NCBI RefSeq assembly: GCF_017051705.1 | Contig: NZ_JAFIDJ010000001.1 | Span: forward strand, 372,001 to 436,000 | Length of the DNA stretch: 64,000 bases | Reading direction: 5' to 3' | Origin: Algoriphagus lutimaris | Lineage (GTDB): Bacteria > Bacteroidota > Bacteroidia > Cytophagales > Cyclobacteriaceae | In this document: one piece after another, positions 4,552 to 27,769 of the stretch | How positions within the stretch are numbered: the stretch's first letter is position 1 | Layout of the letters: every line of letters begins with the position of its first letter | Translations under genes and position numbers: made by a program | Notes under the pieces: model-generated | What the model was told of the DNA's origin: nothing | Database searches by the model: none | What the model saw: the letters and a program-made list of their open reading frames with translations, nothing else

Positions 4552-4573
4552 TGAAAGGGCGAAGCTGTAGCCC
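4552..4573 (+). promoter_or_regulatory. GC-rich leader element, copy A
   Basis: TGAAAGGGCGAAGCTGTAGC followed by CC, in an otherwise AT-rich gap, 39 bases before the export gene. GGGC (4557-4560) can pair with GCCC (4570-4573), and AAGCT (4562-4566) can alternatively pair with AGCTT (4575-4579), so two mutually exclusive hairpins are possible. The same core occurs at 27748-27768 ahead of locus 2. Position and form recall ops/JUMPstart-type antitermination sites of polysaccharide operons, but no homology is claimed. Confidence 0.5.
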
Positions 4574-4612
4574 GAGCTTATTGATTTTGGAAATTTTATT
4601 GCAACTTACTTT

Positions 4613-7270
4613 ATGGTTAATACCAAAAATATAATGATCTCAGATGCTTTAAGAAGGCGATATCAAACAATTGATATCAGGGTATTTATGTTTACCGTCC
4701 TATTTTTCTTGATTGGATTAATGGTACAGGCCCAAAATCTATCAGATATCCAAAACTTGAAGGTGGATAATTTATCGGATGCTCAATTGGAACAATTGTT
4801 AAAGAGAGCAGAGGCAAATGGACTGACAGTGAATCAATTGGAAGCCTTAGCAAGAGAAAGGGGAATGCCTGCAATGGAAGCCGCAAAATTGAGGCAAAGA
4901 ATCAACCAACTACAAATGGCTGTAAGTCCTGAAAATGGAGTGACGCCTGTAGGCTCAGGTAGGTCAGTAGTAGGGGGAAATGGGAGAGATGTATTTGATT
5001 CTCTCAGAAGATCAGATCCCTATTATGATTTAACCCCAATTCAGAAAAAAATCTTTGGATTTAAGTTATTTCATAATAAAAATTTGGACTTTTCACCAAG
5101 TCTAAACCTTCCTACTCCTTTATCCTATGTTATTGGAGCTGGAGATCAGTTATTGCTGGATGTTTACGGAGCGTCCCAACAATCATTTGATTTGAATGTG
5201 ACTCCAGAAGGAAGAGTCTATCTGCCCAATATTGGTCCAATACAAGTGGGAGGCTCCACCATTGAGGCAGCAACAGCAAGGATAAAAACCTCTTTGGGAA
5301 GAATATATTCTGGGCTAAATGGAGCAGAGCCTAATACATTTATTCAATTACGTCTGGGAAATATTCGCTCTATCAAAGTTTCTATGGTGGGTGAATTGAC
5401 GAAACCTGGCACCTATACATTGCCTTCTTTTGCAACAGTTTTCAATGGTTTATATGCAGCTGGTGGCCCAAATGAAAATGGTGCATTTAGAAATATTCAA
5501 GTTTACAGAAACAGTAGATTGGTAGCGACAGTAGATATTTATGAATTCCTTTCTAAAGGTGAGCAGAGTTCAAATATCACGTTACAGGATAATGATGTCG
5601 TGATTGTTCCACCTGTCCAAGCTAGAGTGGAAGTGATTGGCCCAGTTAGGAGAGAGGGTTTATTTGAAGTTAAACCTGAGGAACACCTAACAGACTTATA
5701 CATCTATTCGGGAGGTTTTGAAAGTTTGGCTTATAAAGATCGAGTTACGATTAGAAGGATTGAGGATAATCAACGAAAAGTAATTGATGTTTCGTCTAGT
5801 CAATATAACTCCTTTCTTCTCAAAGATGGTGATGAAATTTTAATAGGTGAGGCATTGGATCGATTTGTAAATAGGGTTCAGATTTCGGGTGCAGTGAATC
5901 GTCCGGGGGAATATTCTTTTGAAGAAGGGAAGTTAACTGTAAAAGGATTGGTTGAAAAAGCCCAAGGGCTAAAACCAGAAGCGTTTACCAACAGATCTAC
6001 TTTATATAGAACAAGTACAGATTTGACTCTTGCTGCTGAATCATTGGATTTAGCTGGAATTTTGAATGGATCAAAACCTGATATTACTCTTCAGAACGAG
6101 GATTTATTATTTATCCCAAGTAGATATGATATTCAAGAAGAATATTATGTCAAAATATCCGGAGAGATCAATTTTCCTGGAACTTATCCATTTGCCTCTA
6201 ACATGACAGTTGGAGATTTGATTTTAAGATCCGGAGGATTATTACAATCTGCCTCGAATGCGTCAATTGAAATTGCGCGAAGAGTTAGAGATCCTAATTC
6301 TGGAAAAATTGCAGAAATTTCTAATTTATCTATAGATCCTAATTTAGAATTAACTGCCGAAGAGTCCAGTATGCCCTTAAAACCTTTTGACCATGTATTT
6401 ATTCGTAGAAGTCCAGGTTTTGAAAGAGAGCAATTAATAACCTTGCAAGGAGAAGTGGTACACCCTGGAGAGTTTGCGATCTCAGGAGCAGATGAAAGAA
6501 TTTCTGATGTAATTAAAAGGGCGGGCGGTTTGACTCAATTTGCCTATCCTAAAGGCGCAAGTTTGATAAGAAGAACCGTTTATTACAAAGGCCCGACAGA
6601 AGAGGAGATGAAAGAGGGGGCTTTAAGGAATTTAAAGGATAACCTGGACCCTGAAAGAAATCGTAATATCAATGAAGCTGAGGAGTTGATGTATGAAAGG
6701 ATTAATACGAAGTTAAGTCAAAAAGAGCAAGAGCGTATCTTGAGAGAAAGAGAACAGGAAAGAATGAAGCTGTTTGAATCCTCTAATTTAAACGATACAA
6801 TATCCCTAGATTCCACAATCAATCAAGTAAGAATCTCAGAGCAGGATTTAGTAGGGATTGATTTGGAGAAGATTATGCAAAACCCTGGTTCAGATGAGGA
6901 TTTGTTCTTAATGGAAGGAGATATTATCAGAGTACCTAAAGAGTTACAAACGGTCAGAATGGTAGGGGAGGTGTTGTTACCTACTACTAGCAGATATAAT
7001 AAAAAGAATAGTTTAAAAAATTACATATCAAAAGCAGGAGGATTCACAGAAGAGGCTAGAAAATCTAAAACCTATGTGATTTATGCGAACGGGGATGCCA
7101 AACGAACGCATAATTTTTTGGGAATAAAATTTTATCCTGAGCTTGAACCTGGAGCTGAAATTGTAGTGCCCAAAAAACCTCAAAGAAATAGACTTAATGC
7201 AGCGGGATGGATAGGACTTGCTTCTAGTTTAGCAACGTTAGGGATCCTAGTTGATCGATTATTAAATTAA
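4613..7270 (+). CDS. Polysaccharide export protein with multiple SLBB domains (Wza-like)
   Basis: An 885-residue outer-membrane/periplasmic export protein. A hydrophobic segment ending in QAQ (about residues 26-41) acts as signal; an ATG at 4688 would give a shorter, more usual signal peptide, so the start is uncertain. A poly-export domain (GAGDQLLLDVYG, about residues 175-250) is followed by about six SLBB modules, recognisable by repeated GEL/GPV/GAV/GEI/GEV plus P-G motifs: MVGELTKPGTY, VIGPVRREGLF, ISGAVNRPGEY, ISGEINFPGTY, LQGEVVHPGEF and MVGEVLLP. A charged coiled stretch (KEQERILREREQERM) sits before the last one. A C-terminal membrane segment (GLASSLATLGILVDRLL) ends the protein. It is much longer than E. 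coli Wza and resembles the large SLBB exporters common in Bacteroidota. ugd follows after 18 bases. Confidence 0.9.
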   Translation: MVNTKNIMISDALRRRYQTIDIRVFMFTVLFFLIGLMVQAQNLSDIQNLKVDNLSDAQLEQLLKRAEANGLTVNQLEALARERGMPAMEAAKLRQRINQLQMAVSPENGVTPVGSGRSVVGGNGRDVFDSLRRSDPYYDLTPIQKKIFGFKLFHNKNLDFSPSLNLPTPLSYVIGAGDQLLLDVYGASQQSFDLNVTPEGRVYLPNIGPIQVGGSTIEAATARIKTSLGRIYSGLNGAEPNTFIQLRLGNIRSIKVSMVGELTKPGTYTLPSFATVFNGLYAAGGPNENGAFRNIQVYRNSRLVATVDIYEFLSKGEQSSNITLQDNDVVIVPPVQARVEVIGPVRREGLFEVKPEEHLTDLYIYSGGFESLAYKDRVTIRRIEDNQRKVIDVSSSQYNSFLLKDGDEILIGEALDRFVNRVQISGAVNRPGEYSFEEGKLTVKGLVEKAQGLKPEAFTNRSTLYRTSTDLTLAAESLDLAGILNGSKPDITLQNEDLLFIPSRYDIQEEYYVKISGEINFPGTYPFASNMTVGDLILRSGGLLQSASNASIEIARRVRDPNSGKIAEISNLSIDPNLELTAEESSMPLKPFDHVFIRRSPGFEREQLITLQGEVVHPGEFAISGADERISDVIKRAGGLTQFAYPKGASLIRRTVYYKGPTEEEMKEGALRNLKDNLDPERNRNINEAEELMYERINTKLSQKEQERILREREQERMKLFESSNLNDTISLDSTINQVRISEQDLVGIDLEKIMQNPGSDEDLFLMEGDIIRVPKELQTVRMVGEVLLPTTSRYNKKNSLKNYISKAGGFTEEARKSKTYVIYANGDAKRTHNFLGIKFYPELEPGAEIVVPKKPQRNRLNAAGWIGLASSLATLGILVDRLLN

Positions 7271-7288
7271 TATTTAAGGAATAATTTT

Positions 7289-8608
7289 ATGAAAATTGCA
7301 GTAGTTGGTACCGGCTATGTTGGGTTGGTGTCAGGAGCTTGTTTTGCTGACGTAGGTATCGAAGTTACCTGTGTGGATATTGATCAAAAGAAAATAGAAA
7401 AATTAAAGAATGGGATCATGCCCATTTATGAACCAGGACTAGAAGAAATTGTGGTTCGAAATTATAAAAGTGGAAGATTACAATTTAGCACAGACTTAGG
7501 GGAAGCAATTCAAGGTGCATCTGTTGCATTTATCGCAGTAGGCACTCCTCCAGGAGAAGATGGCTCTGCGGATTTAAAATATGTATTGGCAGTGGCTGAT
7601 GAGATTGGTCAAAAGATGTCAGATTATATCGTTGTAGCTACTAAAAGTACTGTACCTGTTACTACTGGTGAAAAGGTAAGAGCAGCAATTAAAAATGCCT
7701 TAGATAAAAGGGGGGCTGATCTTCCCTTTGCAGTAGCTTCAAACCCTGAGTTTCTAAAAGAGGGAGCTGCTGTAGAGGATTTCTTAAAACCCGATAGAAT
7801 TGTAATCGGAGTGGATGATACTCGTGCAGAGGAAATCATGAAGCGCTTGTATAAACCATTTCAGCTAAGTGGTGAGAGAATCATCTATATGGATATTCCT
7901 TCTGCGGAAATGACTAAGTATGCAGCAAATGCCATGTTAGCGACAAAAATTTCTTTCATGAACGACATTGCCAACCTATGTGAAAAAGTAGGGGCGGATG
8001 CCAATATGGTCAGAAGAGGAATTGGAACAGATCCGAGAATTGGAAATAAATTCATTTACCCTGGTGTAGGATATGGTGGATCCTGTTTCCCTAAGGATGT
8101 TAAAGCCATTATCAAGACAGCCAAACAATATGGGTATGATCTGAGAGTTCTTCAGGCTGTAGAAGATGTGAACGATGACCAGAAGCATGTTCTAGCCAAT
8201 AAAGTGAAAGCACATTTTGGAGAGGATTTAAGCGGGATGACCTTTGCCATGTGGGGTTTAAGCTTTAAGCCGAATACCGATGATATGAGGGAAGCACCAG
8301 CTGCCGTAATCATTGATGAGTTAAGAGAAGCAGGAGCAACTGTTAAGGCTTATGATCCTGTTGCCATGGAAGAGGCTAAAGAACATTACCTATTTGATAA
8401 AGTGACTTATTGTAAGGATTCTTATGATGCTTTGGTCGATGCTGACGCATTGTTGCTAGTGACCGAATGGTCAGAGTTCAGAATTCCAAGTTGGGATGTA
8501 GTTTCCAAGCTCTTAAAAAACAAAGTGATATTCGATGGTAGAAATATCTATGATAGAAAATACTTGAATACTCTTGGTTTTGAAGTGTTTAATATCGGAT
8601 CTAAGTAA
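7289..8608 (+). CDS. ugd: UDP-glucose 6-dehydrogenase
   Basis: A 439-residue enzyme that oxidises UDP-glucose twice with NAD+ to UDP-glucuronate in the cytoplasm, a precursor for the polysaccharide. The N-terminal Rossmann motif GTGYVGLVSG is at residues 7-16. The central domain holds KSTVPVTTG, NPEFLKEG and the catalytic motif GYGGSCFPKD with Cys266. The C-terminal NAD/UDP-binding domain has WGLSFKPNTDDMREAP. Length and motif order are typical of bacterial Ugd (UDP-Glc type rather than UDP-ManNAc type). It follows the export gene by 18 bases and ends at a strong terminator, so wHTH, exporter and ugd could form the first transcription unit. Confidence 0.95.
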   Translation: MKIAVVGTGYVGLVSGACFADVGIEVTCVDIDQKKIEKLKNGIMPIYEPGLEEIVVRNYKSGRLQFSTDLGEAIQGASVAFIAVGTPPGEDGSADLKYVLAVADEIGQKMSDYIVVATKSTVPVTTGEKVRAAIKNALDKRGADLPFAVASNPEFLKEGAAVEDFLKPDRIVIGVDDTRAEEIMKRLYKPFQLSGERIIYMDIPSAEMTKYAANAMLATKISFMNDIANLCEKVGADANMVRRGIGTDPRIGNKFIYPGVGYGGSCFPKDVKAIIKTAKQYGYDLRVLQAVEDVNDDQKHVLANKVKAHFGEDLSGMTFAMWGLSFKPNTDDMREAPAAVIIDELREAGATVKAYDPVAMEEAKEHYLFDKVTYCKDSYDALVDADALLLVTEWSEFRIPSWDVVSKLLKNKVIFDGRNIYDRKYLNTLGFEVFNIGSK

Positions 8609-8619
8609 TTATGAAAGCT

Positions 8620-8656
8620 ATCCCCTGATTTTTATTCAGGGGATTCTTTTGTTTTG
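8620..8656 (+). terminator. Rho-independent terminator after ugd
   Basis: A perfect 9-bp inverted repeat, ATCCCCTGA (8620-8628) and TCAGGGGAT (8636-8644), around a 7-base loop, followed by a T-rich tail. It separates ugd from the legionaminic-acid genes. The rest of the gap to 8828 is AT-rich with one short inverted repeat (TGATT/AATCA, 8787-8800); I see no clear promoter in it. Confidence 0.85.
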
Positions 8657-8828
8657 ATAACAGGCTTAATTCCAAAGATTTTTTGTAGTTGACTTTTGAA
8701 TATCCCCATTATAATTAGTAGACAGTAAAAACTTCTAGGATGGAAAAAAGCAATTTTCCAATAACCTAATTCTGTCTAGATTTAATTGATTTTATAATCA
8801 GTTGATTGAAAACAATTTCTTGAATTAA

Positions 8829-10031
8829 ATGAATTATTTACATCTAATAGGTCGAAAGAAAGATCTTTTTTCAAATGAAATAAAGTCCTTTGATTCTTTT
8901 TTTTCGAAGCAAATATCACAGTCTAAATTCCTAGTATTAGGGGGTGCTGGTTCTATTGGCCAAGCTGTTTCAAAAGAGATTTTTAAACGAAATCCAAAGA
9001 AACTTCACATTGTTGATATTAGTGAAAATAATCTCGTAGAGCTCGTAAGAGATATTAGGAGTTCTTATGGATATATCGAGGGTGATTTTAAAACTTTTGC
9101 TTTAGATATTGGATCTAATATTTATGATGCATTTTGGAATTCGGACGGAGATTATGACTATGTGTTAAATCTTTCAGCTCTAAAACATGTAAGGAGCGAA
9201 AAGGATTCATTCACATTAATGCGGATGGTTGAGGTGAATATATTGAATACCCTAAAAACCGCTAGACAAGCAAAAGAAAACGGAATAAAAAAATATTTCT
9301 GCGTGTCTACGGACAAGGCAGCAAACCCAGTTAATATGATGGGGGCCTCAAAGCGCATAATGGAGTTTTTCCTAATGCGTGAGAGTAAGGACATTTCCAT
9401 ATCTACAGCAAGGTTTGCAAATGTCGCTTTTTCTGACGGATCATTATTGCATGGGTTCAATCTACGAATTCAAAAAAAACAACCCATCGTAGCCCCAAAC
9501 GACATTAAGCGGTATTTTGTCACTCCTCAGGAGTCTGGAGAGCTTTGTTTGATGTCCTGTCTTCTTGGAGATAATAGGGATATCTTTTTCCCTAAGTTAA
9601 GTGAAGATCTGCACCTTATTACATTTGCAGAAATAGCAGTAAATTATCTTAAAGGATTGGGTTACGAACCTTTTATCTGCGATTCAGAAGAACGGGCTCG
9701 TCAATTTTTCAAAATGGAAAACCAATTGCTGAAGGAGAATAGAAACTATTGGCCATGTTATTTCTCTAAAAGTGACACCACAGGCGAAAAAGATTTTGAG
9801 GAGTTTTTTATGGAAGGTGAGACTTTGGATATGGAGCGGTTCGAGAATCTAGGTATAGTAAAAAGCAATCTCTCTTTTAAAGAAGAAAAGCTAGATGGCT
9901 TTCTTTCATCTATTGACACCCTTATTGAAAGCAAGCAATGGACAAAAACTGACCTTGTCGATTTATTTCGCAGCCTATTACCTTCTTTTCAGCATAAGGA
10001 AACAGGTAAATATTTAGACGCTAAAATGTAA
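8829..10031 (+). CDS. legB: NDP-GlcNAc 4,6-dehydratase (LegB type)
   Basis: A 400-residue SDR dehydratase, predicted first step from NDP-GlcNAc towards legionaminic acid: formation of the 4-keto-6-deoxy sugar. The nucleotide motif GGAGSIGQAV is near residue 38. Asp-Ile and LSALKHVRSEKD follow, then the active-site segment STDKAANPVNMMGASK, with the Asp-Lys pair and Met/Lys typical of CapD/FlaA1-type dehydratases. The C-terminal tail (LLPSFQHKETGKYLD) is characteristic of LegB-type proteins in my recollection. It is followed after 2 bases by a LegC-type aminotransferase. PtmE downstream suggests the donor may be GDP-GlcNAc, as in Campylobacter. UDP-GlcNAc dehydratase activity for another pathway is the alternative. 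Confidence 0.85.
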   Translation: MNYLHLIGRKKDLFSNEIKSFDSFFSKQISQSKFLVLGGAGSIGQAVSKEIFKRNPKKLHIVDISENNLVELVRDIRSSYGYIEGDFKTFALDIGSNIYDAFWNSDGDYDYVLNLSALKHVRSEKDSFTLMRMVEVNILNTLKTARQAKENGIKKYFCVSTDKAANPVNMMGASKRIMEFFLMRESKDISISTARFANVAFSDGSLLHGFNLRIQKKQPIVAPNDIKRYFVTPQESGELCLMSCLLGDNRDIFFPKLSEDLHLITFAEIAVNYLKGLGYEPFICDSEERARQFFKMENQLLKENRNYWPCYFSKSDTTGEKDFEEFFMEGETLDMERFENLGIVKSNLSFKEEKLDGFLSSIDTLIESKQWTKTDLVDLFRSLLPSFQHKETGKYLDAKM

Positions 10032-10033
10032 AT

Positions 10034-11173
10034 ATGGTCTTCAAAGAAACCATTCAGTTTATTCAGGATAAATTCAATACCAAAGACTTTATTCCACTTC
10101 ATGTCCCCCATTTTAATGGGAATGAGCGCAAATATGTATTGGATACTTTGGATTCTACCTTTGTTTCTTCAGTAGGGGCTTATGTGGATAGAGGGGAGGC
10201 CATGATGACCGAGATCAGTCAGACCAAAGGCGCTGTGGCGGTTGTCAATGGGACTGCTGGATTACAAGTTGCGCTTCAGTTGGTTGGTGTAAAACCTGGA
10301 GAGGAGGTTCTTACCCAAGCTCTAACATTTGTGGCAACAACCAATGCCATCCAATACAATGGGGCTCAGCCGATTTTTTTGGATGTAGATTATGATACTA
10401 TGGGACTTTCTCCCAAATCAGTTTTGGATTTTCTTGAAGAATTTGGGGAACGACGAGACAAAGGGACATTCAATAAGAAATCAGGAAAAAGAATAGCAGC
10501 ATGTTTACCTATGCATACTTTTGGTTTCCCCGTTCATTTGGAAGAACTTTTAGCAGTATGTAAGGATTGGAATATTCCAATAGTAGAGGATGCGGCAGAA
10601 TCCTTAGGTAGTTCTTATAAAGGAAAACCTACAGGTTCATTTGGGAAGGTTGGTGTGTTCTCCTTTAATGGAAACAAAATAGTGACTTCTGGTGGGGGAG
10701 GTATGATAGTAACCAATGATGAAAAATTAGGCAAGTTAGGGAAGCATTTGACTACAACGGCTAAAATCCCTCATGCCTTTGAATATTTTCATGATCAAAC
10801 GGGATATAATTTTAGGATGCCTAATTTGAATGCCGCATTACTTTGTGCACAGTTAGAGCAATTAAGAAGCTTTTTGGAAAACAAGAGAAAATTAGCAGGG
10901 GATTATGCTGAGTTTTTTGAAAATCAAGGAATTACTTTTCGAAAGGAATTAGAAAACACAAAGGCTAATTATTGGCTAATGTGTGTGGAGATGGAAAATT
11001 TGGAGCATCGTAATAGTTTTTTGGAAGTTACGAATGGTTCCAAAGTAATGACAAGGCCTATTTGGCAATTGATGTTTAGGTTACCTATGTATGCACATTG
11101 CCAGCGAGATGCCCAGACTAATGCGGAGTTTTTGGAGCAAAGAATCGTCAATATTCCAAGTAGTGCCATCTAA
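10034..11173 (+). CDS. legC: LegC-type PLP aminotransferase
   Basis: A 379-residue DegT/DnrJ/EryC1-family aminotransferase, predicted to transfer an amino group to C4 of the LegB product. PLP-fold motifs are NGTAGLQVALQL (near residue 74), FVATTNAIQYNGAQPIFLDV, VEDAAESLGS and FSFNGNKIVTSGGGG, with Lys215 the expected Schiff-base lysine. The ending NIPSS is usual for LegC-like enzymes. It lies 2 bases after legB and 110 bases before legI; that gap contains a perfect palindrome TTCTCTAGAGAA at 11234-11245 of unknown role. Assignment to C4 amination rests on the surrounding pathway genes. Confidence 0.88.
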   Translation: MVFKETIQFIQDKFNTKDFIPLHVPHFNGNERKYVLDTLDSTFVSSVGAYVDRGEAMMTEISQTKGAVAVVNGTAGLQVALQLVGVKPGEEVLTQALTFVATTNAIQYNGAQPIFLDVDYDTMGLSPKSVLDFLEEFGERRDKGTFNKKSGKRIAACLPMHTFGFPVHLEELLAVCKDWNIPIVEDAAESLGSSYKGKPTGSFGKVGVFSFNGNKIVTSGGGGMIVTNDEKLGKLGKHLTTTAKIPHAFEYFHDQTGYNFRMPNLNAALLCAQLEQLRSFLENKRKLAGDYAEFFENQGITFRKELENTKANYWLMCVEMENLEHRNSFLEVTNGSKVMTRPIWQLMFRLPMYAHCQRDAQTNAEFLEQRIVNIPSSAI

Positions 11174-11283
11174 ATTCAATGAATTTATATTTCAAAGATA
11201 ATCTTCTAGTGGTCGAAATGAGAAAGAAAGTAGTTCTCTAGAGAATTTGTCATGCAGGAGAAAGCAATTCGATATTCTTGCTA

Positions 11284-12321
11284 ATGACTAGTAAAATGAA
11301 AAGAAATAAAGTTTTAATTATTGCAGAAGCCGGTGTAAATCACAATGGAGATTTGGCACTTGCAAAAAGGCTGATCGATGTGGCTGTAGTAGCCGGAGTT
11401 GATTTGGTGAAATTCCAAACTTTTAAAGCTGAAGATTTAGTTTCCAAAGAAGCCAAACAAGCGGACTATCAAAAGAAAAATATAGGTGAAGGTTCTGATT
11501 CACAATTTGAAATGCTAAAAAGGCTGGAGCTATCAGAAGAGGATCATCTAGAACTTGTAAATTATTGTGAAGAAAAGGGAATCGAATTCTTTTCAACAGC
11601 TTTTGATGTCAAAGGATTGGAATACCTAAACTCACTTGGTTTTTCTAGATTTAAAGTTCCCAGCGGAGAAATCACCAATTATCCTTACCTCAAAAAAATT
11701 TCGGAATTTGGTAAGCCAGTTATCCTTTCAACAGGGATGGCAGACTTAGTGGAAATAAAGGCCGCTTTATTAGTATTAGAAGAGGGTATTGCAAAAGAAA
11801 ATATTACAGTTTTGCACTGCAATACAGAATATCCCACGCCAATGGAGGATGTCAACCTAAAGGCTATGAACACTATTGCAAAAGAATGTGATGTAGAAGT
11901 GGGATACTCGGACCATACCTTGGGAATAGAAGTACCTATAGCAGCAGTAGCCATGGGCGCGGTGGTCATAGAAAAGCATTTCACACTAGATCGATCCCTA
12001 CCGGGGCCTGATCATGCGGCATCTTTGGAGCCTGATGAACTAAAAGCTATGGTTCAGGCGATTAGAAATATCGAAAAAGCTATTTCTGGTAATGGAATAA
12101 AGGCACCTAGTAAAAGTGAGTTGAAAAATAGAACAATTGCAAGGAAAAGCCTCCATTTAATAAATAACCTTGTACCAGGGCATATTTTGGTTAAGGAAGA
12201 TTTGGTTGCACTTCGACCTGGTGATGGAATCTCACCAATGATAATTAATGAAGTACTGGGAAAGGAAATAAACCAAAACCTTGATAAAGGTGCTAAACTG
12301 CTAAAAGAACACTTAAAGTGA
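11284..12321 (+). CDS. legI: N,N'-diacetyllegionaminate synthase (NeuB family)
   Basis: About 345 residues. NeuB-family synthase condensing phosphoenolpyruvate with 2,4-diacetamido-2,4,6-trideoxymannose to form legionaminate. The TIM barrel starts at IIAEAGVNHNGD; further motifs are VKFQTF, FSTAFD, KVPSGE, STGMA, LHCNTEYPTP, GYSDHT and EKHFTLD. The C-terminal SAF/antifreeze-like domain (ARKSLHL, LVALRPGDGISP) closes over the active site in this family. Start: first ATG at 11284; a further ATG at 11296 is also plausible, and neither has an SD. The stop overlaps the GTG start of legG. Legionaminate rather than Neu5Ac specificity is inferred from LegB, LegC and PtmE next to it. Confidence 0.9.
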   Translation: MTSKMKRNKVLIIAEAGVNHNGDLALAKRLIDVAVVAGVDLVKFQTFKAEDLVSKEAKQADYQKKNIGEGSDSQFEMLKRLELSEEDHLELVNYCEEKGIEFFSTAFDVKGLEYLNSLGFSRFKVPSGEITNYPYLKKISEFGKPVILSTGMADLVEIKAALLVLEEGIAKENITVLHCNTEYPTPMEDVNLKAMNTIAKECDVEVGYSDHTLGIEVPIAAVAMGAVVIEKHFTLDRSLPGPDHAASLEPDELKAMVQAIRNIEKAISGNGIKAPSKSELKNRTIARKSLHLINNLVPGHILVKEDLVALRPGDGISPMIINEVLGKEINQNLDKGAKLLKEHLK

Positions 12322-15167: not shown

Positions 15168-15170
15168 CCA

Positions 15171-15695: not shown

Positions 15696-15730
15696 AATTT
15701 ATTTTTCTTAAGTAAGTCTAAGGTCTTTTT

Positions 15731-18543: not shown

Positions 18544-18571
18544 TTTTTCATTTTTCAAATACTTCTAACAT

Positions 18572-19192
18572 ATGATGGTAATAGCAGGGGCAGGAGGACA
18601 TGCATTGGAGGTTTTTGATGAGCTGAAAGGTATATTTCCCGAAAAATTAAATGAGAATTTTTACTGTTATGACCAGGATCTTAAAAAAATAAAATTTGTA
18701 AATGAGTTCCCAGTATTGCATTCCCCGGATGAATTAATAGGAGCAGTGTCCTCCGCTTTTTATTTCTGTCTTGGGATAGGAAATTCCTTCTTAAGAAAGA
18801 AGGTTTTTGATGAATTGGTAAAACTGGGCGGAGTTTTTCAACCTGTTCATTCCAACAGTTCAATCATTAGTGATTCAGCTATCGGGGATTTTGATGCCTT
18901 GAGTCAATCTTTTATAGGCCCCGATGTGAAAATTGGGACAGGCTCATTGGTCAATGTGGGTGCAAAAGTTCACCATGAAAGTTCTTTGGGGGAATTTGTA
19001 GAAATCGGACCTGGATCCATCGTGCTTGGAAATGCGTCGATTGGTGATTTTACTCAGATTGGTGCTGGAGCTGTAGTTCTTCCGGGAGTAAAAATTGGAA
19101 GTAATTGTAAAATTGGTGCTGGTTCAGTAGTGACTCGCGATTTAATGGATGGGGTGGTTGCCTTTGGTGTCCCTTGTAAAGTTAAAAAGTAA
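18572..19192 (+). CDS. NeuD/PglD-type sugar acetyltransferase (LegH candidate)
   Basis: A 206-residue enzyme with a small N-terminal Rossmann-like domain (AGAGGHALEVFDE) and a C-terminal left-handed beta-helix (VKIGTGSLVNVGAKVHHESS, IGPGSIVLGNASIGDFTQIG, GAGSVVTRDL, FGVPCKVKK). His135 in VHHESSLG aligns with the catalytic base of PglD/NeuD enzymes. PglD-type proteins acetylate the C4 amino group of the UDP-bacillosamine precursor, so this is the best candidate for the missing LegH step. O-acetylation of the nonulosonate is the alternative. It starts 28 bases after the preceding gene. Confidence 0.83.
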   Translation: MMVIAGAGGHALEVFDELKGIFPEKLNENFYCYDQDLKKIKFVNEFPVLHSPDELIGAVSSAFYFCLGIGNSFLRKKVFDELVKLGGVFQPVHSNSSIISDSAIGDFDALSQSFIGPDVKIGTGSLVNVGAKVHHESSLGEFVEIGPGSIVLGNASIGDFTQIGAGAVVLPGVKIGSNCKIGAGSVVTRDLMDGVVAFGVPCKVKK

Positions 19193-19231
19193 AAATAGAT
19201 CCCCTTTCTCAGAGGAAAATTTCAAAAAAAA

Positions 19232-20098: not shown

Positions 20099-20147
20099 AA
20101 AGATATTTTCAAAAAGATCAGGATTTCGTAAATCAGAGTTTTATTCT

Positions 20148-21239
20148 ATGAAAAATCAAATAAATAATATCCTGCTAAAAAATGATTTTACACTTCTCAA
20201 CTTAGTGAAATTAGGGAAAGCCAAGTTGAAAGTACTTATAGCTGCAATTGTATTCTTTATACTTATAGGGATCGCTTATTTTATTTCTACTCCAACCTCA
20301 TTTTCTTCTGCGACAATTTTATTGGTAGAAAGCCAAAATACAAGTTCCGCTGGAGGTTTGGGTTCACTGGCTCAAGTGGCAGGTTTTTCTGTACCGGGCT
20401 CCTCCGCAGAATTAGCAACATTGGATCCCGCTCTTTATCCAATGATCTTGCAAAGCAAACCATTTTTGGAGGATTTGATGAATTCAAAAATTAAATCTGA
20501 AACCTATCAAGATTCTGTTTCTCTTTTTAAATATTTCGTTGAAACACGGCCTGATAATGAGATTTATAAGTTTTTAAAAAGCCCGCTTTCAATTTTTAAA
20601 CCTGGTATTCAAGTAAATGATAGTGAAAGAGATTCTGTCAAACAGAAAGACAGAACAAGGTATGAACCGCTCGAGATGTATGTTTTGTATCGAATTTCTG
20701 AGCGAATAACTGTAAGCTCGGAGGGGAGATTATTAATCATTTCTACTACCATGCCGGAGCCAAACTTGGCATTCCAATTTTCCAAAATGGTCAAAAATTT
20801 ATTAGTGGAATATTCCACTAGATACCTTCAAGAAAAGCAAAAAAATCAGGTTCAATATTTAGAAGTTCAATACCAAAAAAGTGAGGAAGGGTTTAAAGAA
20901 GCTCAAAATGCTTTGACCACTTTCAAAGAAAGGAATCAAGGGTTGTTTTTGGAAAGTATGAAAGCCATAGAGCAAAACTTAAATGCTGAGTATAATCTAA
21001 AGTTTGAATTATATAGGACTATTGCAAAGGAGTTAGAAACCTCAAAAATTGAATTAAACAATCAAAAGCCCATTTTTACTGAGATCGAACCCCCGATTAT
21101 ACCTAATGGGCCTATAGCCCCTAACTTAATTTTAACCTTGGCATTTTGTATCACCTTAGGTTTTATTTTTGGTCTGATCTTGATTTTCATACTTTATATC
21201 AAGCAATACATCAAGCTACATCAAGAAATTGAAGTCTGA
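20148..21239 (+). CDS. Wzz-like chain-length/co-polymerase protein
   Basis: About 363 residues from the ATG at 20148; an in-frame TTG at 20070 would add 26 charged residues overlapping the previous gene and looks wrong. It has a first membrane segment (VLIAAIVFFILIGIAYFI) followed by the Wzz-domain start (FSSATILLVESQ), then a long periplasmic part. A predicted coiled coil (FKEAQNALTTFKERNQG) leads to a P-rich segment PPIIPNGPIAPN and a second membrane segment (ILTLAFCITLGFIFGLILIF). This is the usual layout for polysaccharide co-polymerases without a kinase domain, which set chain length together with Wzy. It overlaps the following GT2 gene. Confidence 0.83.
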   Translation: MKNQINNILLKNDFTLLNLVKLGKAKLKVLIAAIVFFILIGIAYFISTPTSFSSATILLVESQNTSSAGGLGSLAQVAGFSVPGSSAELATLDPALYPMILQSKPFLEDLMNSKIKSETYQDSVSLFKYFVETRPDNEIYKFLKSPLSIFKPGIQVNDSERDSVKQKDRTRYEPLEMYVLYRISERITVSSEGRLLIISTTMPEPNLAFQFSKMVKNLLVEYSTRYLQEKQKNQVQYLEVQYQKSEEGFKEAQNALTTFKERNQGLFLESMKAIEQNLNAEYNLKFELYRTIAKELETSKIELNNQKPIFTEIEPPIIPNGPIAPNLILTLAFCITLGFIFGLILIFILYIKQYIKLHQEIEV

Positions 21240-22236
21240 TTTGAAAGTATCTGTAATTGTACCCTGTTTCAACAACGAACGGTTAATTACTGATACCTTA
21301 GAATCTGTTATCCAACAAACCTATTTCAATTGGGAGTGTATCGTAGTAGATGACGGCTCTGATGACCGTTCTGTTGAAAAGATTCTAAGTTATGTGAATA
21401 GAGATCATCGATTCAGGCTATTAAAGAGGCCAAGTGATCTTCCCAAAGGTGCTAATTCATGTAGAAATTATGGGGTCTTAAAAAGTTCAGGAGAATATCT
21501 GATATTTCTTGATGCCGATGATTTACTTGCTAATAATTGCATTGAGCGTAGAGTTAATTCAATATCAGTAGAAGATTTAATAATTCATTCTACCGCCCAT
21601 TTTACTGAAGAAATAGATCAAGCATCCCCATTTTTCCCAAACCTTAATTCAAATTTATCGGCTATTGAATACAGGAATATGTTTTTAGAATATATGATTC
21701 CATGGCATACCAGTAGTGGGATTTGGAAAAAAGATTTTTTTAATGAAATAAATGGGTTTAACGATAGGTTGTTAAGGTTTCAGGATGTGGATTTACATGT
21801 AAGAGCATTATCCTTTCCTTTGATTAAGTTCAAATTGGATGATTCTTCAAGTTTTACATCTTATTACCGGAAATCCGAGTTTCATCAAAAGGTCACCAAA
21901 GAAAAACGGAGATTTATTTTAAATCAAGGACTTGCTTTTGCAAGTGAATTGAAGTCGTTACTAAAGCCAAATGACTTCATATCTGTTCAAGGGCTATTTG
22001 TTTATTTACTATTTAGGTTTGAAGAAGTGGTTGGTTTAGAGGATTTAAAGGTGATTAAAAACCTTATGCAAACGAATTCAGGGGAATCGGAGTCACATTC
22101 ACTTGCATATGAATTCAACTTTCTTGTTTGGGTTTATGGGACTTGGATGACAAACCCCAGTCGATTTAGAAAGTATTTGAGTTTTATCGTGTTCAAAAAA
22201 TATTCTTATTCAATCCGAAAGAAGTTGAACCATTGA
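21229..22236 (+). CDS. Glycosyltransferase family 2
   Basis: A 335-residue GT-A enzyme: VSVIVPCFNNERLITDTLES, VVDDGSDDRSVEKIL, PKGANSCRNYGVLKSSGEY and FLDADDLLANN with the DxDD metal site. The C-terminal 130 residues are not recognised. Starts are non-ATG: TTG at 21229, overlapping the preceding stop, or TTG at 21241, which would give the typical MKVSVIVP opening. The stop overlaps the TTG start of the next gene by 4 bases. Confidence 0.86.
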   Translation: MKSDLKVSVIVPCFNNERLITDTLESVIQQTYFNWECIVVDDGSDDRSVEKILSYVNRDHRFRLLKRPSDLPKGANSCRNYGVLKSSGEYLIFLDADDLLANNCIERRVNSISVEDLIIHSTAHFTEEIDQASPFFPNLNSNLSAIEYRNMFLEYMIPWHTSSGIWKKDFFNEINGFNDRLLRFQDVDLHVRALSFPLIKFKLDDSSSFTSYYRKSEFHQKVTKEKRRFILNQGLAFASELKSLLKPNDFISVQGLFVYLLFRFEEVVGLEDLKVIKNLMQTNSGESESHSLAYEFNFLVWVYGTWMTNPSRFRKYLSFIVFKKYSYSIRKKLNH

Positions 22237-23435
22237 AAGTCTATTATGAAAATATTGAGTTTTGGCATTTAATTACCTTGCCCATTTACTTCGTTTTGGT
22301 TTATTTAATTCTGACGACGTTTGCCAAAAGGATTTTAATTTCAGATAGTAAGTATATCAACATCCATTTTCTTGGTCTTTTATTGTTTTATCTTGCCATT
22401 GGGTTAGTTGATTATAAGATCAAGCTGATTCCTTATTTCCCGGATACAAATCTATTTACTAGGATTTTAGAAACAGGTGTAACGCCACAAAATCAATCCA
22501 TTGGTGTGAAAATTGGATATAAATTTCTAGCTATTCCAATCTATTTGATTTCACTAAAATCAATATTTAATTATTTCTTATTCAATATTCTGTTCTTCCA
22601 ACTTGGACTGATTTTCTTGGCTGGCGCATTTAACCGAACCTATGATATTAAAGATGTTTGGGTTCAACGGTTTTATTTACTCCTAGCTGCATTAGCCCCG
22701 TCTATAGTGGTTTATTCTTTTACACCACTTCGAGAGAGTTACTTCGTCCTTGCTTTAGGTTTATTCTTTTACGGGATGACCGGGAAATATAAACTCAATT
22801 ACTACTTAATTTTCGGGGTTATTTTGGCTGGGATTCTTAGGATTCAACTTCTTCTGTATTTTTTTATCATTGTCGGGTTGCAATACTTGGTTCAATTAAA
22901 GTTGAACCGAAAAATGGTAATTGGTCTCATTTTAGTTTTATTTCCTGTATTTTTTGTAGTGTTGAATTTCTTGTCTACCAGCATTTTGAATATACCTATT
23001 TCACCACAGAGTTTATCCTTGTTTAGAAATGTACAACGAATGAATTATTTTGAATCTGGGGTTACCTACCCAGAAGTAGATTGGAGGACTTGGTTGGACT
23101 TAATTTTAGACTTTCCTGGTTTGTTTTTTCAATTTTTACTGGCCCCTTTTCCAGTAATTATTTTCATCCCATTTTGGACAAAATTGGCCTATTTTGCTGA
23201 CGGATTGTATTTGCTTTTCCTTTTATTTATTTGCCTTATTTTCATAAAAAATATCAAGAAATATTCCTTATGGATGATCTACATAGGGGTTTATGTTGGA
23301 ATGTCGGCTTTTTTTGAATTTCATTTGCTAGGGGCAGTCCGTCATAGATTACCTGCAACCTTATTATTATTGAGTATTGCTGCACAAGCATTAGCGTATT
23401 ACTTGCCAAAATATAAATGGATTTTCAGGTATTGA
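22233..23435 (+). CDS. Putative Wzy-type polysaccharide polymerase
   Basis: A 400-residue polytopic membrane protein with about 10 hydrophobic segments. A large loop (residues about 65-95, PDTNLFTRILETGVTPQNQS) and a second loop (residues about 265-290, RNVQRMNYFESGVTYPEVDW) resemble the periplasmic loops of Wzy polymerases. TPLRESYFVLALGLFFYG is another recurrent feature of EpsG/Wzy-like proteins. No clear family signature, so the call rests on topology and on lying between wzz and glycosyltransferases in a locus that otherwise lacks a polymerase. TTG start overlapping the upstream stop (TTGA). Confidence 0.62.
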   Translation: MKVYYENIEFWHLITLPIYFVLVYLILTTFAKRILISDSKYINIHFLGLLLFYLAIGLVDYKIKLIPYFPDTNLFTRILETGVTPQNQSIGVKIGYKFLAIPIYLISLKSIFNYFLFNILFFQLGLIFLAGAFNRTYDIKDVWVQRFYLLLAALAPSIVVYSFTPLRESYFVLALGLFFYGMTGKYKLNYYLIFGVILAGILRIQLLLYFFIIVGLQYLVQLKLNRKMVIGLILVLFPVFFVVLNFLSTSILNIPISPQSLSLFRNVQRMNYFESGVTYPEVDWRTWLDLILDFPGLFFQFLLAPFPVIIFIPFWTKLAYFADGLYLLFLLFICLIFIKNIKKYSLWMIYIGVYVGMSAFFEFHLLGAVRHRLPATLLLLSIAAQALAYYLPKYKWIFRY

Positions 23436-24178
23436 TTTCGACAATGAATCCAACGCCAGATTCATTCAAAGGAAAAAGTTTTAATGCATTGGTCATTTCC
23501 CAAAACCAAACTGGAATCAGATTCCACGATAAAAACTTAGAGTTTATTTCTTTTGATGAAAAAGGATTGTCAAAGAGTAGAAATCGGGCTATGGAAAAAG
23601 GAAAAGCGGATTTAGTCTTAATTGCTGATGACGATGTGGATTTCTGTGAAAAATTTGATGTTAAAATCAAAAAAGCTTTTCAAGAGTTTCCCGATGCGGA
23701 TATTATTACCTTCAAAATATTGACTCCAACAGGAGAAAACTATAAAAATTATCCCGAGAGTTCTTATAGACATACACGTAAAAGTATTTTTACAGTGTCC
23801 TCTGTAGAAATAGTTTTTAAACTTGAAAGTTTGAAAAAAGCTGGAATTAAGTTTGATGAAAGATTTGGCTTGGGGGCTTCTTATCCTAGTGGAGAAGAAA
23901 CCATTTTTTTAAACGACGCAATGAATAAAGGGTTGAACATATATTTTGTACCTGAATATATAGTGGTGCATCCCCTTGAAAGCTCCGGGAAAATTTTGGA
24001 TACAAAGTATTATAAAAGTAAAGGAGCCCTAATTAAAAGGTTATATGGTTATTCTTTTAATTTAGTTTTGGGGATAGCTTTTTTGATAAAGCAATATTTA
24101 AAACCGCAAAGATCTATTCCTTTTTTTAGTTCATTTAAAGAAAGTTTGATAGGTTTCAACTCAATCAACAAAGGATAA
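23417..24178 (+). CDS. Glycosyltransferase (GT2-like, divergent N-terminus)
   Basis: A 253-residue protein with a shortened GT-A start (VLISTMNPTPDSF), then EKGLSKSRNRAMEKGKADLV and LIADDDVDFCEKF (the DDD metal site). SGEETIFLNDAMNKG near residue 158 is the acceptor-side acidic motif. It lacks the usual VSVIIP opening; proteins of this kind in capsule loci are usually called GT2-family or galactosyltransferase-like. It overlaps the upstream membrane protein by 19 bases and the downstream gene by one base (TAATG). Confidence 0.78.
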   Translation: MDFQVLISTMNPTPDSFKGKSFNALVISQNQTGIRFHDKNLEFISFDEKGLSKSRNRAMEKGKADLVLIADDDVDFCEKFDVKIKKAFQEFPDADIITFKILTPTGENYKNYPESSYRHTRKSIFTVSSVEIVFKLESLKKAGIKFDERFGLGASYPSGEETIFLNDAMNKGLNIYFVPEYIVVHPLESSGKILDTKYYKSKGALIKRLYGYSFNLVLGIAFLIKQYLKPQRSIPFFSSFKESLIGFNSINKG

Positions 24179-24933
24179 TGCTTGTATCGATAATTACTCC
24201 TGTTTACAATGCCCACTCTCATATAGAGGAGACGATACAGTCAATTATGGCGCAGACCTATACTGATTGGGAATTGATCCTGATAGATGACTATTCCACT
24301 GATAATGGTATTCATATTTTAAGCCGTTATACAGAATTGGATGCAAGAATTCATTTGCATGAAAACCCTAAAAATCTAGGTGCTGCTGTCAGTCGAAATA
24401 AAGGAATTGAAATGGCTAAAGGTAGGTTTATTGCATTTTTAGATAGTGATGATCTATGGGAGCCTACAAAGCTTGAAACTCAAGTAAGGTTTATGTTGGA
24501 AAATAAACATGCATTTACATTTGCTGGTTATTTTAAAATTAAGAATGATGTCATAGTAGGAGAACATGAAGTTCCCTCTAAAGTAAATCATAATGATTTA
24601 TTAAAAACTTGCTCCATTGGGTGTTTGACAGCAATGTATGATACGGACCAACTTGGGAAAGTTTATATGCCTATAATATCGAAAAGACAGGATTTTGCAC
24701 TTTGGCTTAAAATATTGAAGCTAATTCCTTACGCCTATGGTATAAATCAACCGTTGGCAAAATATAGGTTAAGGGATGATTCTATTTCAGGGAATAAATT
24801 CAAGGCCGCTAAATATCAATGGATTGTTTATCGTGAATTTGAGCATCTGAACTTTTTTAAATCTATTTATTATTTCATGCATTACACTTTTTTTGGGGTA
24901 CTGAAAACGTATTTTCATAAAGCGAAAAAATAA
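24178..24933 (+). CDS. Glycosyltransferase family 2
   Basis: A 251-residue enzyme with a complete GT-A opening (VSIITPVYNAHSHIEETIQS, MAQTYTDWELILIDDYSTD), NLGAAVSRNKGIEMAKG, the metal site FLDSDDLWEP and RQDFALWLKI near residue 180. It resembles WcaA/SpsA-type capsule transferases. Translationally coupled to the preceding gene by a one-base overlap. Acceptor and sugar unknown. Confidence 0.88.
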   Translation: MLVSIITPVYNAHSHIEETIQSIMAQTYTDWELILIDDYSTDNGIHILSRYTELDARIHLHENPKNLGAAVSRNKGIEMAKGRFIAFLDSDDLWEPTKLETQVRFMLENKHAFTFAGYFKIKNDVIVGEHEVPSKVNHNDLLKTCSIGCLTAMYDTDQLGKVYMPIISKRQDFALWLKILKLIPYAYGINQPLAKYRLRDDSISGNKFKAAKYQWIVYREFEHLNFFKSIYYFMHYTFFGVLKTYFHKAKK

Positions 24934-24935
24934 GA

Positions 24936-25802
24936 TTGAACCAGGTGTTTATTAGTGTAATTATTCCTGTTTATCAAGATTGGGAACGTCTATTGACCTG
25001 CCTGAATGCCCTGGATAAGCAAGAAAATATCGATTCAATCTTTGAGGTAATTATTGTAAATAATGATCCTAATGACGATTACAGGCCCAGTGAAAAATTT
25101 TCTTTCCCTATTCAGTTTTTAACGGAACCTTCTCCGGGTTCTTATTCAGCAAGAAATAGAGGGTTGACCTTAGCAAAAGGATATGGTGTCTTATTTACCG
25201 ATTCTGATTGTATCCCAGGTCCTGATTGGATTTTTCAAGCTAAAAACCTTCTTGAAAAAGGAGAAGCTGATTTATATGGAGGGCTGATCGAAGTATTCTC
25301 ACACCTCGAGAATAAATTTGTCAAATTTGAGAAAGCATTTGCCTTCCCAAATTCATTTTATGTAGAACATTGTAACTTTAGTGTAACTGCTAACCTTTTG
25401 GTAAAAAAAGCGGTTGTAGATACAATTGGTGGATTTAATTCTTCCTTACTGACAGGGGGAGATTCGGAGTTTTGCAATCGAGCTGTGAAAGCAGGGTTCA
25501 AAATAAACTTTAGTCCATTGATGTCACTTAAACACCCGGCAAGAACAACTTGGGAAGAGATGAAAGTGAAGGCCATCCGCTTTGGAGGAAGATTGCCCAA
25601 AGGAAAAAATAGACTCATTATCATACTGAAGTTATTAGGTAAATTCCGAATTAGGTTGACAGATATTCAACAGGTTTATAAATTGACGGGCTTTGGAATT
25701 ACAGATAAATTGGAGTTTTACTTCATCAAACAAAGGTTAAGGTGGGTGGAAGCGCATGAATCAGTACGTGTTTATTTAGGTAAAAAACCTGGAAGAAAAT
25801 AA
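24936..25802 (+). CDS. Glycosyltransferase family 2, paralogue of 19232
   Basis: A 288-residue GT-A enzyme starting at TTG 24936, two bases after the previous stop. ISVIIPVYQDWERLLTCLNA, PSPGSYSARNRGLTLAKG, the metal site TDSDCIPGPDW and LTGGDSEFCNRAVKAGF match the protein at 19232 block for block and in total length. The two probably arose by duplication and then diverged widely, so they may add the same kind of sugar at two places in the repeat unit. Confidence 0.88.
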   Translation: MNQVFISVIIPVYQDWERLLTCLNALDKQENIDSIFEVIIVNNDPNDDYRPSEKFSFPIQFLTEPSPGSYSARNRGLTLAKGYGVLFTDSDCIPGPDWIFQAKNLLEKGEADLYGGLIEVFSHLENKFVKFEKAFAFPNSFYVEHCNFSVTANLLVKKAVVDTIGGFNSSLLTGGDSEFCNRAVKAGFKINFSPLMSLKHPARTTWEEMKVKAIRFGGRLPKGKNRLIIILKLLGKFRIRLTDIQQVYKLTGFGITDKLEFYFIKQRLRWVEAHESVRVYLGKKPGRK

Positions 25803-25804
25803 TC

Positions 25805-27532
25805 ATGTTAAAGAAGGCTGAAAATGGTGTAAATCGACCCAACTTTCAATTTGGGGTTCTACTCTTGCTTACGATTTTTTCTTTTTATTTTGACACTCAA
25901 GCTCAGATTCTAAATACGGATTTCCCAGTATTGGAACAATACCTAAGGAGGGAGCAGTTATTAGGAGAATTTCCCCTTCACCATTCTTTTACTCTCAGGC
26001 CAATTCGTTTTGATGGAAGGGATTCTACAGCAGGGACCAATGCAGTTTCTAAGATTCTCACAAGGGCTTCGAAAATTGAAACCCCCCAAAAGCGGATCAA
26101 TTTATTACCTCTTATTTCTACAACGGAAATTAATACAAAAAGGCCCTATGGTTGGGGAAATAAAGGTTTGATACCTAATGTAGGATTTCAAACATATTTC
26201 AGCGCTGGAATTTATGCTCGATTTAAGTTTTTGGAAATTCAGCTTCAACCAGAACTTTCATTTTCTCAAAATAGACCATTTGATGGATTTGAAGCACAGT
26301 TCTCCGGTTTTGAAAATTATTCCAGATATTTTTATTGGAATAATGGAGATAATCCAGAACGATTTGGGAATGAGTCGATAAGTAGATTTTGGTGGGGCCA
26401 GTCAAGTGTAAATATTTTAATGGGGCCGATGGCTCTTGGTATTTCAACCCAAAATATTTGGTGGGGACCAGGACAATTTAATTCTTTGATTTTTTCGGAT
26501 AATTCGGAGGGATTCCCTCATTTGTCTTTATCCACCCGAAGACCTCTCAAGTCAATTGTAGGGAATTTTGAATTGCAGCTGATTTTGGGCAGGCTTGAAG
26601 ATTCAGGGTTATTTCCTTCTCAAAATGAGGTGTTAAATAGGAGGTATTTCCGGAGATTTGATGGAGATTGGCGCTACTTGAATGGTTTGAAATTAAATTA
26701 TAATCCTTCTTTTTTAAAGCATTTGTTTGTAGGATTCAGTAGGACTTTTCATCAATACAGTAAGTACATGGGAAGTTCTTTTAATGACTATTTCCCGGTT
26801 TTTGAAGTTTTTCAAAAGAAAACTTTGTTTCAAAATGGTAATTCGATAGCCTATGACGGAAGAGGTCAGGATCAACAAGTCGCCTTGTCCATGAGGTATG
26901 TGGTACCCAAGGCGAATTTTGAAATCTATGCAGAATATGGGAGGAGGGACCATGCCTACAATTGGAGAGATTTTATTTTAAATCCTGATCACGCAAGGGC
27001 ATATTTATTTGGATTTCAAAAACTCTTTCCTATTCATGAAAGAAATTCATTTCTTCAAGTGAGAGGGGAAATGACTCAACAGCAAGAATCTGTCAATAGG
27101 TATGTGAGATATCCTGGACTGATTGGAAATCAAACTTGGAATACCCATGGTTTGGCTCGGGCTTTCGGTAATTATGGGGAAAATTTAGGGGTAGGGATAG
27201 GAGTAGGTTCAAACGTTCAAACTCTCGAGATAACAGAGGTGAAGGGAATGATGAAAAGAGGAATCTTATTAGAGCGTTTAGAGAATAATCAAGATTACTT
27301 TTTTAGAGCATTTGGTTTAAATACAGAGAAAAAACCATGGGTAGATTTAAGCTTTGGTTTGCTTTGGGATCAGCGATTTGATAGACTTATTCTCAGCGGC
27401 AAAGCTCAATTTATCAAAGCCAATAATTATCAGTGGCAGTCCCAAGGAATAAGTACGAATGATTATCCCAACGGTAGAAAAGTCTTTTCTTTTTATGGGA
27501 ATCTGAATATTATTTATCAGTTAAAGAAGTAA
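25805..27532 (+). CDS. wzi: Wzi-family capsule assembly outer-membrane protein
   Basis: A 575-residue protein with an N-terminal signal (VLLLLTIFSFYFDTQAQ) and a beta-barrel-like body. Family features: LRREQLLGEFPLHHSFTLRP near the N-terminus, RPYGWGNKGLIPNVGFQTYF, a run of alternating aromatic strands, and SINILMGP-like and GISTQNIWWGPGQFNS motifs. NIIYQLKK at the C-terminus is a typical final strand. Wzi proteins bind and organise capsule on the cell surface. It is the last gene of locus 1; about 310 non-coding bases follow. Confidence 0.88.
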   Translation: MLKKAENGVNRPNFQFGVLLLLTIFSFYFDTQAQILNTDFPVLEQYLRREQLLGEFPLHHSFTLRPIRFDGRDSTAGTNAVSKILTRASKIETPQKRINLLPLISTTEINTKRPYGWGNKGLIPNVGFQTYFSAGIYARFKFLEIQLQPELSFSQNRPFDGFEAQFSGFENYSRYFYWNNGDNPERFGNESISRFWWGQSSVNILMGPMALGISTQNIWWGPGQFNSLIFSDNSEGFPHLSLSTRRPLKSIVGNFELQLILGRLEDSGLFPSQNEVLNRRYFRRFDGDWRYLNGLKLNYNPSFLKHLFVGFSRTFHQYSKYMGSSFNDYFPVFEVFQKKTLFQNGNSIAYDGRGQDQQVALSMRYVVPKANFEIYAEYGRRDHAYNWRDFILNPDHARAYLFGFQKLFPIHERNSFLQVRGEMTQQQESVNRYVRYPGLIGNQTWNTHGLARAFGNYGENLGVGIGVGSNVQTLEITEVKGMMKRGILLERLENNQDYFFRAFGLNTEKKPWVDLSFGLLWDQRFDRLILSGKAQFIKANNYQWQSQGISTNDYPNGRKVFSFYGNLNIIYQLKK

Positions 27533-27570
27533 GTAGTTAATGGATTTTAATTTTTCCAAAACCTATTACA

Positions 27571-27606
27571 TTTGCATTCATGCTCAAATGAGTAACTTTG
27601 GTACTC
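27571..27606 (+). promoter_or_regulatory. Promoter/operator-like element B upstream of locus 2
   Basis: TTTG (27571-27574), 18 bases, TAACTTTG (27593-27600), close to the Bacteroidota TTTG-N19-TAnnTTTG consensus. The -7 element is enclosed by an inverted repeat GAGTA (27590-27594), 7 bases, TACTC (27602-27606). ATGAGTAnCTTTGnTACTC is shared with 3949-3967, differing at two positions only. It lies about 240 bases before the first gene of locus 2, leaving a long leader. Nothing else coding is seen in 27533-27844. Confidence 0.65.
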
Positions 27607-27733
27607 GTTTTAATAGCTATCTTTAAATCAATTCTTTTTGGTCTATTTCCAATGAAGCAAAAACATCCTTTATGGGGAGTTTCTACTATTCATTGAGAAT
27701 TTATTTAAAGAAAAAAAGTAAGTCAAATAGTGC

Positions 27734-27769
27734 TGGGTTCATGGGACCGAAAGGGCGAAGCTGAGCCCA
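27734..27769 (+). promoter_or_regulatory. GC-rich leader element, copy B
   Basis: GAAAGGGCGAAGCTGAGCCC at 27749-27768, matching copy A at 4553-4573 apart from one missing base. GGGC/GCCC can form the small hairpin seen in copy A. Here a longer alternative pairing exists too: TGGGTTC (27734-27740) with GAGCCCA (27763-27769), including one G-T pair. It lies about 76 bases before the start codon and about 150 bases after the promoter-like element, so it would be in the 5' untranslated RNA. Confidence 0.5.

Follow-up and report, generated by a model that had tools for sequence, protein, structure and literature searches.

What is the short element that stands in front of two polysaccharide loci of Algoriphagus lutimaris? 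The question is raised by a stretch of 64,000 nucleotides (contig NZ_JAFIDJ010000001.1, positions 372,001 to 436,000 of the forward strand), here called the window, in which a preliminary description had noted a 15-base sequence shared by two leaders. From sequence comparisons the element is very probably a site of the ops kind at which a NusG paralogue of the UpxY family is recruited, because it precedes polysaccharide clusters, and co-occurs and is often linked with UpxY-like genes. The earlier proposal of such a site for a NusG-type antiterminator in glycan loci of Bacteroidota is thus well supported, the UpxY paralogue lying outside the window.

The 15-mer GAAAGGGCGAAGCTG is present exactly at 4553-4567 and 27749-27763 of the window, on the + strand, as had been described, and no further match with up to two mismatches exists there; with up to three mismatches, five matches in total were found against 1.09 expected. 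The whole genome (4.7 Mb, 61 contigs) holds three exact copies, the third at C1:584693, and the longer core GGGANYGAAAGNGCGAAGCTK with up to three mismatches gave four forward sites, the fourth at C1:465827, against three for a reversed-pattern control. All four sites are on the + strand of contig C1, spanning less than 210 kb, and all four precede polysaccharide clusters; the random spread through the genome that would have spoken against the element was not observed.

The conserved unit is 24 nt long and begins upstream of the 15-mer. When 67 sites were aligned (66 from Algoriphagus, one from genome G045), conservation was found to span 24 columns, with background level on either side. The consensus on the coding strand consists of two blocks, TGKGASTGA and then GGC-GNA-GCY followed by NTR; the T at the proposed position -1 is kept in 60 of the 67 sites and the purine (R) at +1 in 59, both being outside the search pattern. 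The copies in the window, with their matrix scores, are these:

4546..4569, + strand: element copy 1, 24 nt (TGTGACTGAAAGGGCGAAGCTGTA), matrix score 40.8 (best other window site 6.3), consisting of the upstream block TGTGACTGA, a 3-nt spacer, the mini-hairpin GGC-GAA-GCT, G, and T(-1) A(+1) in the proposed pause register
4558..4566, + strand: putative non-template-strand DNA mini-hairpin GGC-GAA-GCT of copy 1 (covarying third stem pair; known ultra-stable d(GCGAAGC))
27742..27765, + strand: element copy 2, 24 nt (TGGGACCGAAAGGGCGAAGCTGAG), matrix score 38.0
27754..27762, + strand: putative mini-hairpin of copy 2, on the same basis as in copy 1

Between the two 24-mers and the ATGs at 4613 and 27845 there are 43 and 79 nt, respectively, which agrees with the distances of 39 and 76 bases reported previously. 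An AGCCC tail, which had been counted with the element, follows both window copies and is outside the conserved part, GCCC being found within 14 nt in 5 of the 67 sites; the GGGC/GCCC hairpin suggested along with it is not conserved. Rfam gave no match in the window at the gathering threshold, and a -7 promoter box (TAnnTTTG) at constant distance was rejected, its best single position covering only 5 of the 67 sites.

The element is widespread in the genus. In 36 genomes, A. lutimaris included, a 21-nt pattern with up to two mismatches gave 103 matches and its reversed form 5, and every genome larger than 3 Mb (n = 25) carries two to five sites. From 73 motif loci that were read, 66 were kept; five were dropped as chance-like, one as belonging to another genus and one as having no plausible first open reading frame (ORF). 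Four of the five chance-like loci are without GCGAAGC, and dropping them makes the inner stem appear more constant. A glycan gene is found downstream in 62 of the 66 sites, as first ORF in 51 and directly behind a small four-helix or winged-helix gene in 11. The first same-strand ORF of at least 100 aa matches strings for glycan exporters, enzymes or a membrane gene that precedes MBOAT in 50 sites, the remaining ones being an SLBB protein recognised by eye, nine four-helix bundles, five winged-helix proteins and one unclear case. Eleven of the 14 small first genes have ManC, TviB, Wzm or a glycosyltransferase behind them in the part that was fetched; behind the other three no glycan gene was found in that part. 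For the 26 sites with at least 1 kb on both sides, a same-strand ORF starts within 200 nt in 21 and a divergent one in 2; the count for all 66 sites (54 against 3) is unfair to divergent genes, since 40 loci have about 400 nt upstream or are near a contig end.

Across the phylum, the form TGKGASTGANNNGGCGRAGCYNTR with up to one mismatch was detected in 71 of 395 sampled genomes, the reversed control in 3, and together with the counts for the genus this bears out the conservation in relatives on which the first proposal depended. At least two NusG genes are present in 70 of these 71 genomes and in 131 of the 324 without the element (Fisher p 1e-22, uncorrected for phylogeny); the exception, G251, has one NusG match, which scores like a paralogue.

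The genome of A. lutimaris has two NusG genes, both outside the window. The canonical one adjoins SecE-, RplK- and RplA-like genes (by eye), and the second encodes a paralogue of 170 aa, which is assigned to the UpxY family of NCBIfam (NF033644; 156 bits, cutoff 100) and remains below the cutoffs of the RfaH (60.6 bits, cutoff 144.5) and LoaP (64.6 bits, cutoff 125) models. This upxY gene is located at C1:2089253, about 1.5 Mb from the closest element and beside an RND-efflux-like gene (by eye); it is not a leading gene of a cluster that it would serve, whereas in other families upxY is. Among solved structures, RfaH and then NusG come closest to a profile built from 44 UpxY-like proteins. The basic residues R14, K17 and K18 and the stretch RQWSDRKK are conserved over the 44 sequences and are candidates for contact with the hairpin and the upstream duplex. 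The UpxZ model PF06603 matched none of the 395 genomes and also none of 14 controls, and hence is uninformative.

Linkage of the element with upxY is seen in several families. On 80 named UpxY-like loci a matrix derived from 36 distinct 24-mers (35 from Algoriphagus, one from G045) gave 31 sense and 7 antisense matches, four of the latter preceding SLBB-like genes; 11 of the 31 sense matches overlap the upxY-like start or end within 30 nt of it, and four stand before wza-like genes by eye. When the matrix was set aside, GC-GNA-GC was found within -150 to +70 of the matched start in 14 of the 80 loci in sense and in none in antisense, with 0 to 7 in other sense windows. In three other families of the same order, the UpxY-like gene is inside a glycan cluster, with a GCGAAGC core in the gap before the glycan gene that comes next; three further UpxY-like loci of the same reading have no such core at this place. 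Examples from the phylum sample stand before upxY (six loci), before a winged-helix gene (three), between upxY and an asparagine-synthase-like gene (L236-L241) and before tviB- or GDP-fucose-synthase-like genes (two). A form with one extra spacer base was found in family f25, taken as Flavobacteriaceae since its locus L269 matches the named Flavobacterium locus L214: of 20 genomes that have two NusG genes or more, 6 carry it, as against 0 of 20 with one (control 0), and five of these six have it between upxY and tviB.

In Bacteroidales, twelve genes of the UpxY or NusG family were read as well (Bacteroides, Phocaeicola, Parabacteroides and fecal scaffolds). GC-GNA-GC is found within -150 to +70 of the matched start in nine of them in sense and in none in antisense, with loops GTA (5) and GAA (4), and four of the nine cores appear to be in the leader. 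The idea of a GNA loop in this order came from three of these genes, and the core was found in six of the nine read afterwards; L277/L278 and L282/L283 are near-copies by appearance. Four Bacteroidaceae cores come after an inverted repeat (e.g. TTACCTG..CAGGTAA, CAGTG..CACTG), which could be a pause-promoting RNA hairpin.

The core of the element belongs to a known class of DNA structures. In the parts of PMC4686876 consulted, GNA loops on at least two G-C pairs are described as the extraordinarily stable DNA mini-hairpins of Hirao and co-workers, with a Tm of 78 °C for GCGAAGC; this 7-mer is identical to the element core, and is used there as a stabilising part of aptamers, as opposed to the regulatory site proposed here. 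Among 92 distinct cores the third stem pair is G-T in 55, G-C in 24, A-T in 6, C-G in 3 and other in 4. The two bases can pair in 88 of the 92, against a shuffled mean of 80.5 and with none of 5000 shuffles reaching 88, in a count that ignores relatedness. Stem pairs beyond the third were rejected, as they show no covariation (shuffle p 0.37 and 0.99).

According to the mechanism proposed, RNA polymerase would pause once the element has been transcribed, in a register that places GG at -11/-10, T at -1 and a purine at +1. The non-template strand, being exposed, would then snap into the GC-GNA-GC mini-hairpin, with TGKGASTGA in the re-annealed upstream duplex, and the hairpin would be read by the NGN domain of UpxY and the duplex by the conserved RQWSDRKK stretch. 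UpxY would replace NusG on the polymerase and keep it from pausing and terminating throughout the long glycan cluster. In Algoriphagus several clusters would be served by one unlinked UpxY gene, as with RfaH, and in many other families UpxY is encoded within the cluster that it serves.

The class of mechanism is already known. UpxY of Bacteroides is reported by Saba in 2024 to recognise the polymerase at a pause by way of the non-template DNA and of the duplex DNA upstream, with RNA hairpins assisting, and UpxY and the leaders of capsule operons in Bacteroides are said to have been treated by Chatzidaki-Livanis in 2009. The protein family and the operon class are shared with the system described here, and the mode of recruitment reported is alike; the differences are the single unlinked UpxY for several clusters, the 24-nt consensus outside Bacteroidales and the GNA mini-hairpin as proposed shared core. 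In E. coli, the ops sequence is GGCGGTAGCGTG, the core of which reads as a GNNA member of the class of stable mini-hairpins. Overlaid without gaps, ops and the element share GGCG and GT(G/R) in the same register, and GG, T and R are conserved in the element at the spacing of the pause consensus, copy 2 being without the T. Passages of PMC5995543 describe ops as a 12-nt site with a small non-template DNA hairpin whose pair C3:G8 closes the loop G4-A7 and with the pause bases T11 and G12; the likeness extends to the matching register and to an unlinked NusG paralogue acting on several leaders. In contrast to the loop G4-A7, the element has a GNA triloop (GAA in A. lutimaris), and it has an extra conserved block upstream; the beta3-beta4 hairpin of RfaH has been proposed to touch upstream DNA (PMC5995543, in part), and Saba 2024 is cited in a passage of PMC12691694 for contact of UpxY with the upstream duplex.

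According to a paper of 2020, about half of Bacteroidota have divergent NusG paralogues, and how the operon-encoded ones are recruited was then unknown (PMC7593976, in part). In the titles, abstract openings and passages covered on UpxY, GGGCGAAGCTG, antitermination in Bacteroides and JUMPstart, no description of the element was found, and the papers containing GGGCGAAGCTG were unrelated, as judged by titles and abstract openings. The word undescribed, used in the preliminary description, is too strong for the mechanism, given that UpxY recruitment through transcribed DNA has been published for Bacteroides. New within the literature searched are the consensus outside Bacteroidales, the unlinked RfaH-like target set and the generalisation of the mini-hairpin.

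Several observations weigh against recruitment of UpxY by the element. The usual T at the proposed position -1 is missing in copy 2, the 3-bp form does not fold under the standard DNA energy model, relatedness is left out of the covariation count, and the two inner stem pairs give no information on structure, since they were required when the cores were chosen. The ops-contact residues of RfaH (K10, H20, R23 and R73) are not conserved in UpxY, the protein of A. lutimaris having A12, R22, E25 and P73. Five of the nine Bacteroidales cores are inside the upxY frame, where coding constraint could explain them. Among the Algoriphagus genomes below 3 Mb (n = 11, incomplete metagenome-assembled genomes), a convincing element was found in 1 only, as a divergent copy before an SLBB-like gene in G005, the 21-nt pattern matches in two genomes being chance-like; a paralogue-like NusG match is present in all 11. 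No element is seen at the stringency applied in 131 of the 201 sampled genomes with at least two NusG genes, and six copies in other families or classes stand before genes without evident glycan role by eye. Finally, genome G123 has 30 copies of TGGGACTYACCAGGCGAAGCTCTG or close forms, and the seven that were read are all within a longer conserved repeat. Possible stems in this repeat, GTRAGTCC..GGGACTYAC and CTTACAGG..CCTGTAAG, have their pairing partly kept by eye, and it is perhaps attC-like or another dispersed repeat; the G123 copies and one weak antisense match (L174) were excluded from the list of elements.

The G123 family, with its similar core, is what would favour chance or a dispersed repeat without regulatory role, an explanation that is hardly credible in view of the reversed controls in genus and phylum and of the Algoriphagus flanks, which are unconserved outside the 24 nt, unlike those of a mobile repeat. 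Service as a double-stranded operator, or as part of a promoter, for some sigma factor or regulator of polysaccharide genes is very unlikely: the shortness of the element, its sharp limits and its closeness to gene starts would fit, but the orientation bias (21 against 2), the covarying third pair, the copies located inside upxY or between it and the glycan gene that follows, and the association with a NusG paralogue all argue against it. Somewhat less improbable, though still unlikely, is an action as RNA, in which UpxY would bind a hairpin or sequence of the nascent transcript in the manner of LoaP and its UNCG hairpin in Bacillus. The element is apparently transcribed in several lineages, where it overlaps start codons or is inside annotated upxY, some Bacteroidaceae copies are behind an inverted repeat, as mentioned, and the LoaP precedent itself (PMC12691694, in part), with a NusG paralogue and a leader element for long operons as in dfn, is similar. 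LoaP, however, binds the RNA hairpin without discernible pause, according to passages of the same paper, and a UNCG hairpin with at least four pairs within 100 nt was found in 1 of the 66 Algoriphagus sites (L027, not A. lutimaris) and not near the other 65. The core is moreover that of an ultra-stable DNA hairpin, covariation ends at the third pair, and an upstream hairpin drawn by eye (AGTTC..GGGACT) was rejected with at best 4.87 of 6 pairs against 4.56 in shuffled sequences (68 sites).

The genes behind the four copies in A. lutimaris are the following. Pfam was run on six genes of the window and three genes of loci 3 and 4, and the remaining names were given by eye.

4613..7270, + strand: locus 1, first gene, SLBB / Poly_export (Wza-like) exporter, 885 aa (PF10531, PF22461, PF02563)
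27845..29143, + strand: locus 2, first gene, UDP-glucose/GDP-mannose dehydrogenase family (TviB/WbpA-like), 432 aa (PF03721, PF00984, PF03720)
29256..30080, + strand: locus 2, Poly_export protein (PF02563)
30094..32463, + strand: locus 2, Wzz/tyrosine-kinase-like protein with GNVR domain (PF13807 above cutoff)
after C1:584687: locus 3, TviB-like dehydrogenase, epimerase, Wzx-like and glycosyltransferase genes
after C1:465827: locus 4, membrane protein, MBOAT, ABC exporter and glycosyltransferase-like genes

A winged-helix-like gene (MLDSLVTSKTRxKLLLKFF and similar) recurs near the element, upxY and exporter genes in seven loci (among them L130:4449-4988 and L131:3859-4392); two of these proteins could not be named with confidence by NCBIfam, and the conserved gene is possibly a second regulator. 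A short inverted repeat GAGTAA..TTACTC, which may be a terminator, an operator or part of a promoter, was noticed some tens of nt upstream of the element at ten sites, many of them of the winged-helix/Wzm type. In two UpxY-bearing loci (L161:8519 and L165:8477) the last bases of the element coincide with the ATG of a small gene whose product begins MSxVNKxKAEKRHIAKAITWR and is presumably DUF2061-like. The element also stands directly before a tail-sheath-like gene (MAVQxxYPGVYVQE; named by eye), as in contractile injection systems, in L243 and L244 (genomes G318 and G251), hinting that UpxY also serves long operons unrelated to glycans.

A wider idea, more tentative than the recruitment of UpxY itself and rather less than evenly balanced, is that ops (GC-GGTA-GC) and the Bacteroidota element (GC-GNA-GC) follow one code, in which GNA or GNNA mini-hairpins of the non-template strand at a paused polymerase recruit specialised NusG proteins; this would be a default switch for glycan clusters in Bacteroidota, and probably for long operons of other kinds, contractile injection systems among them. 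If recruitment of UpxY by the element holds true, the code by which an entire class of elongation factors is recruited would become testable through a seven-base hairpin of known physics, and the unusually stable DNA mini-hairpin d(GCGAAGC) would have a natural role. The genomes of Bacteroidota could then be scanned for operons under the control of UpxY, giving a regulon map of capsules, exopolysaccharides and other long operons.

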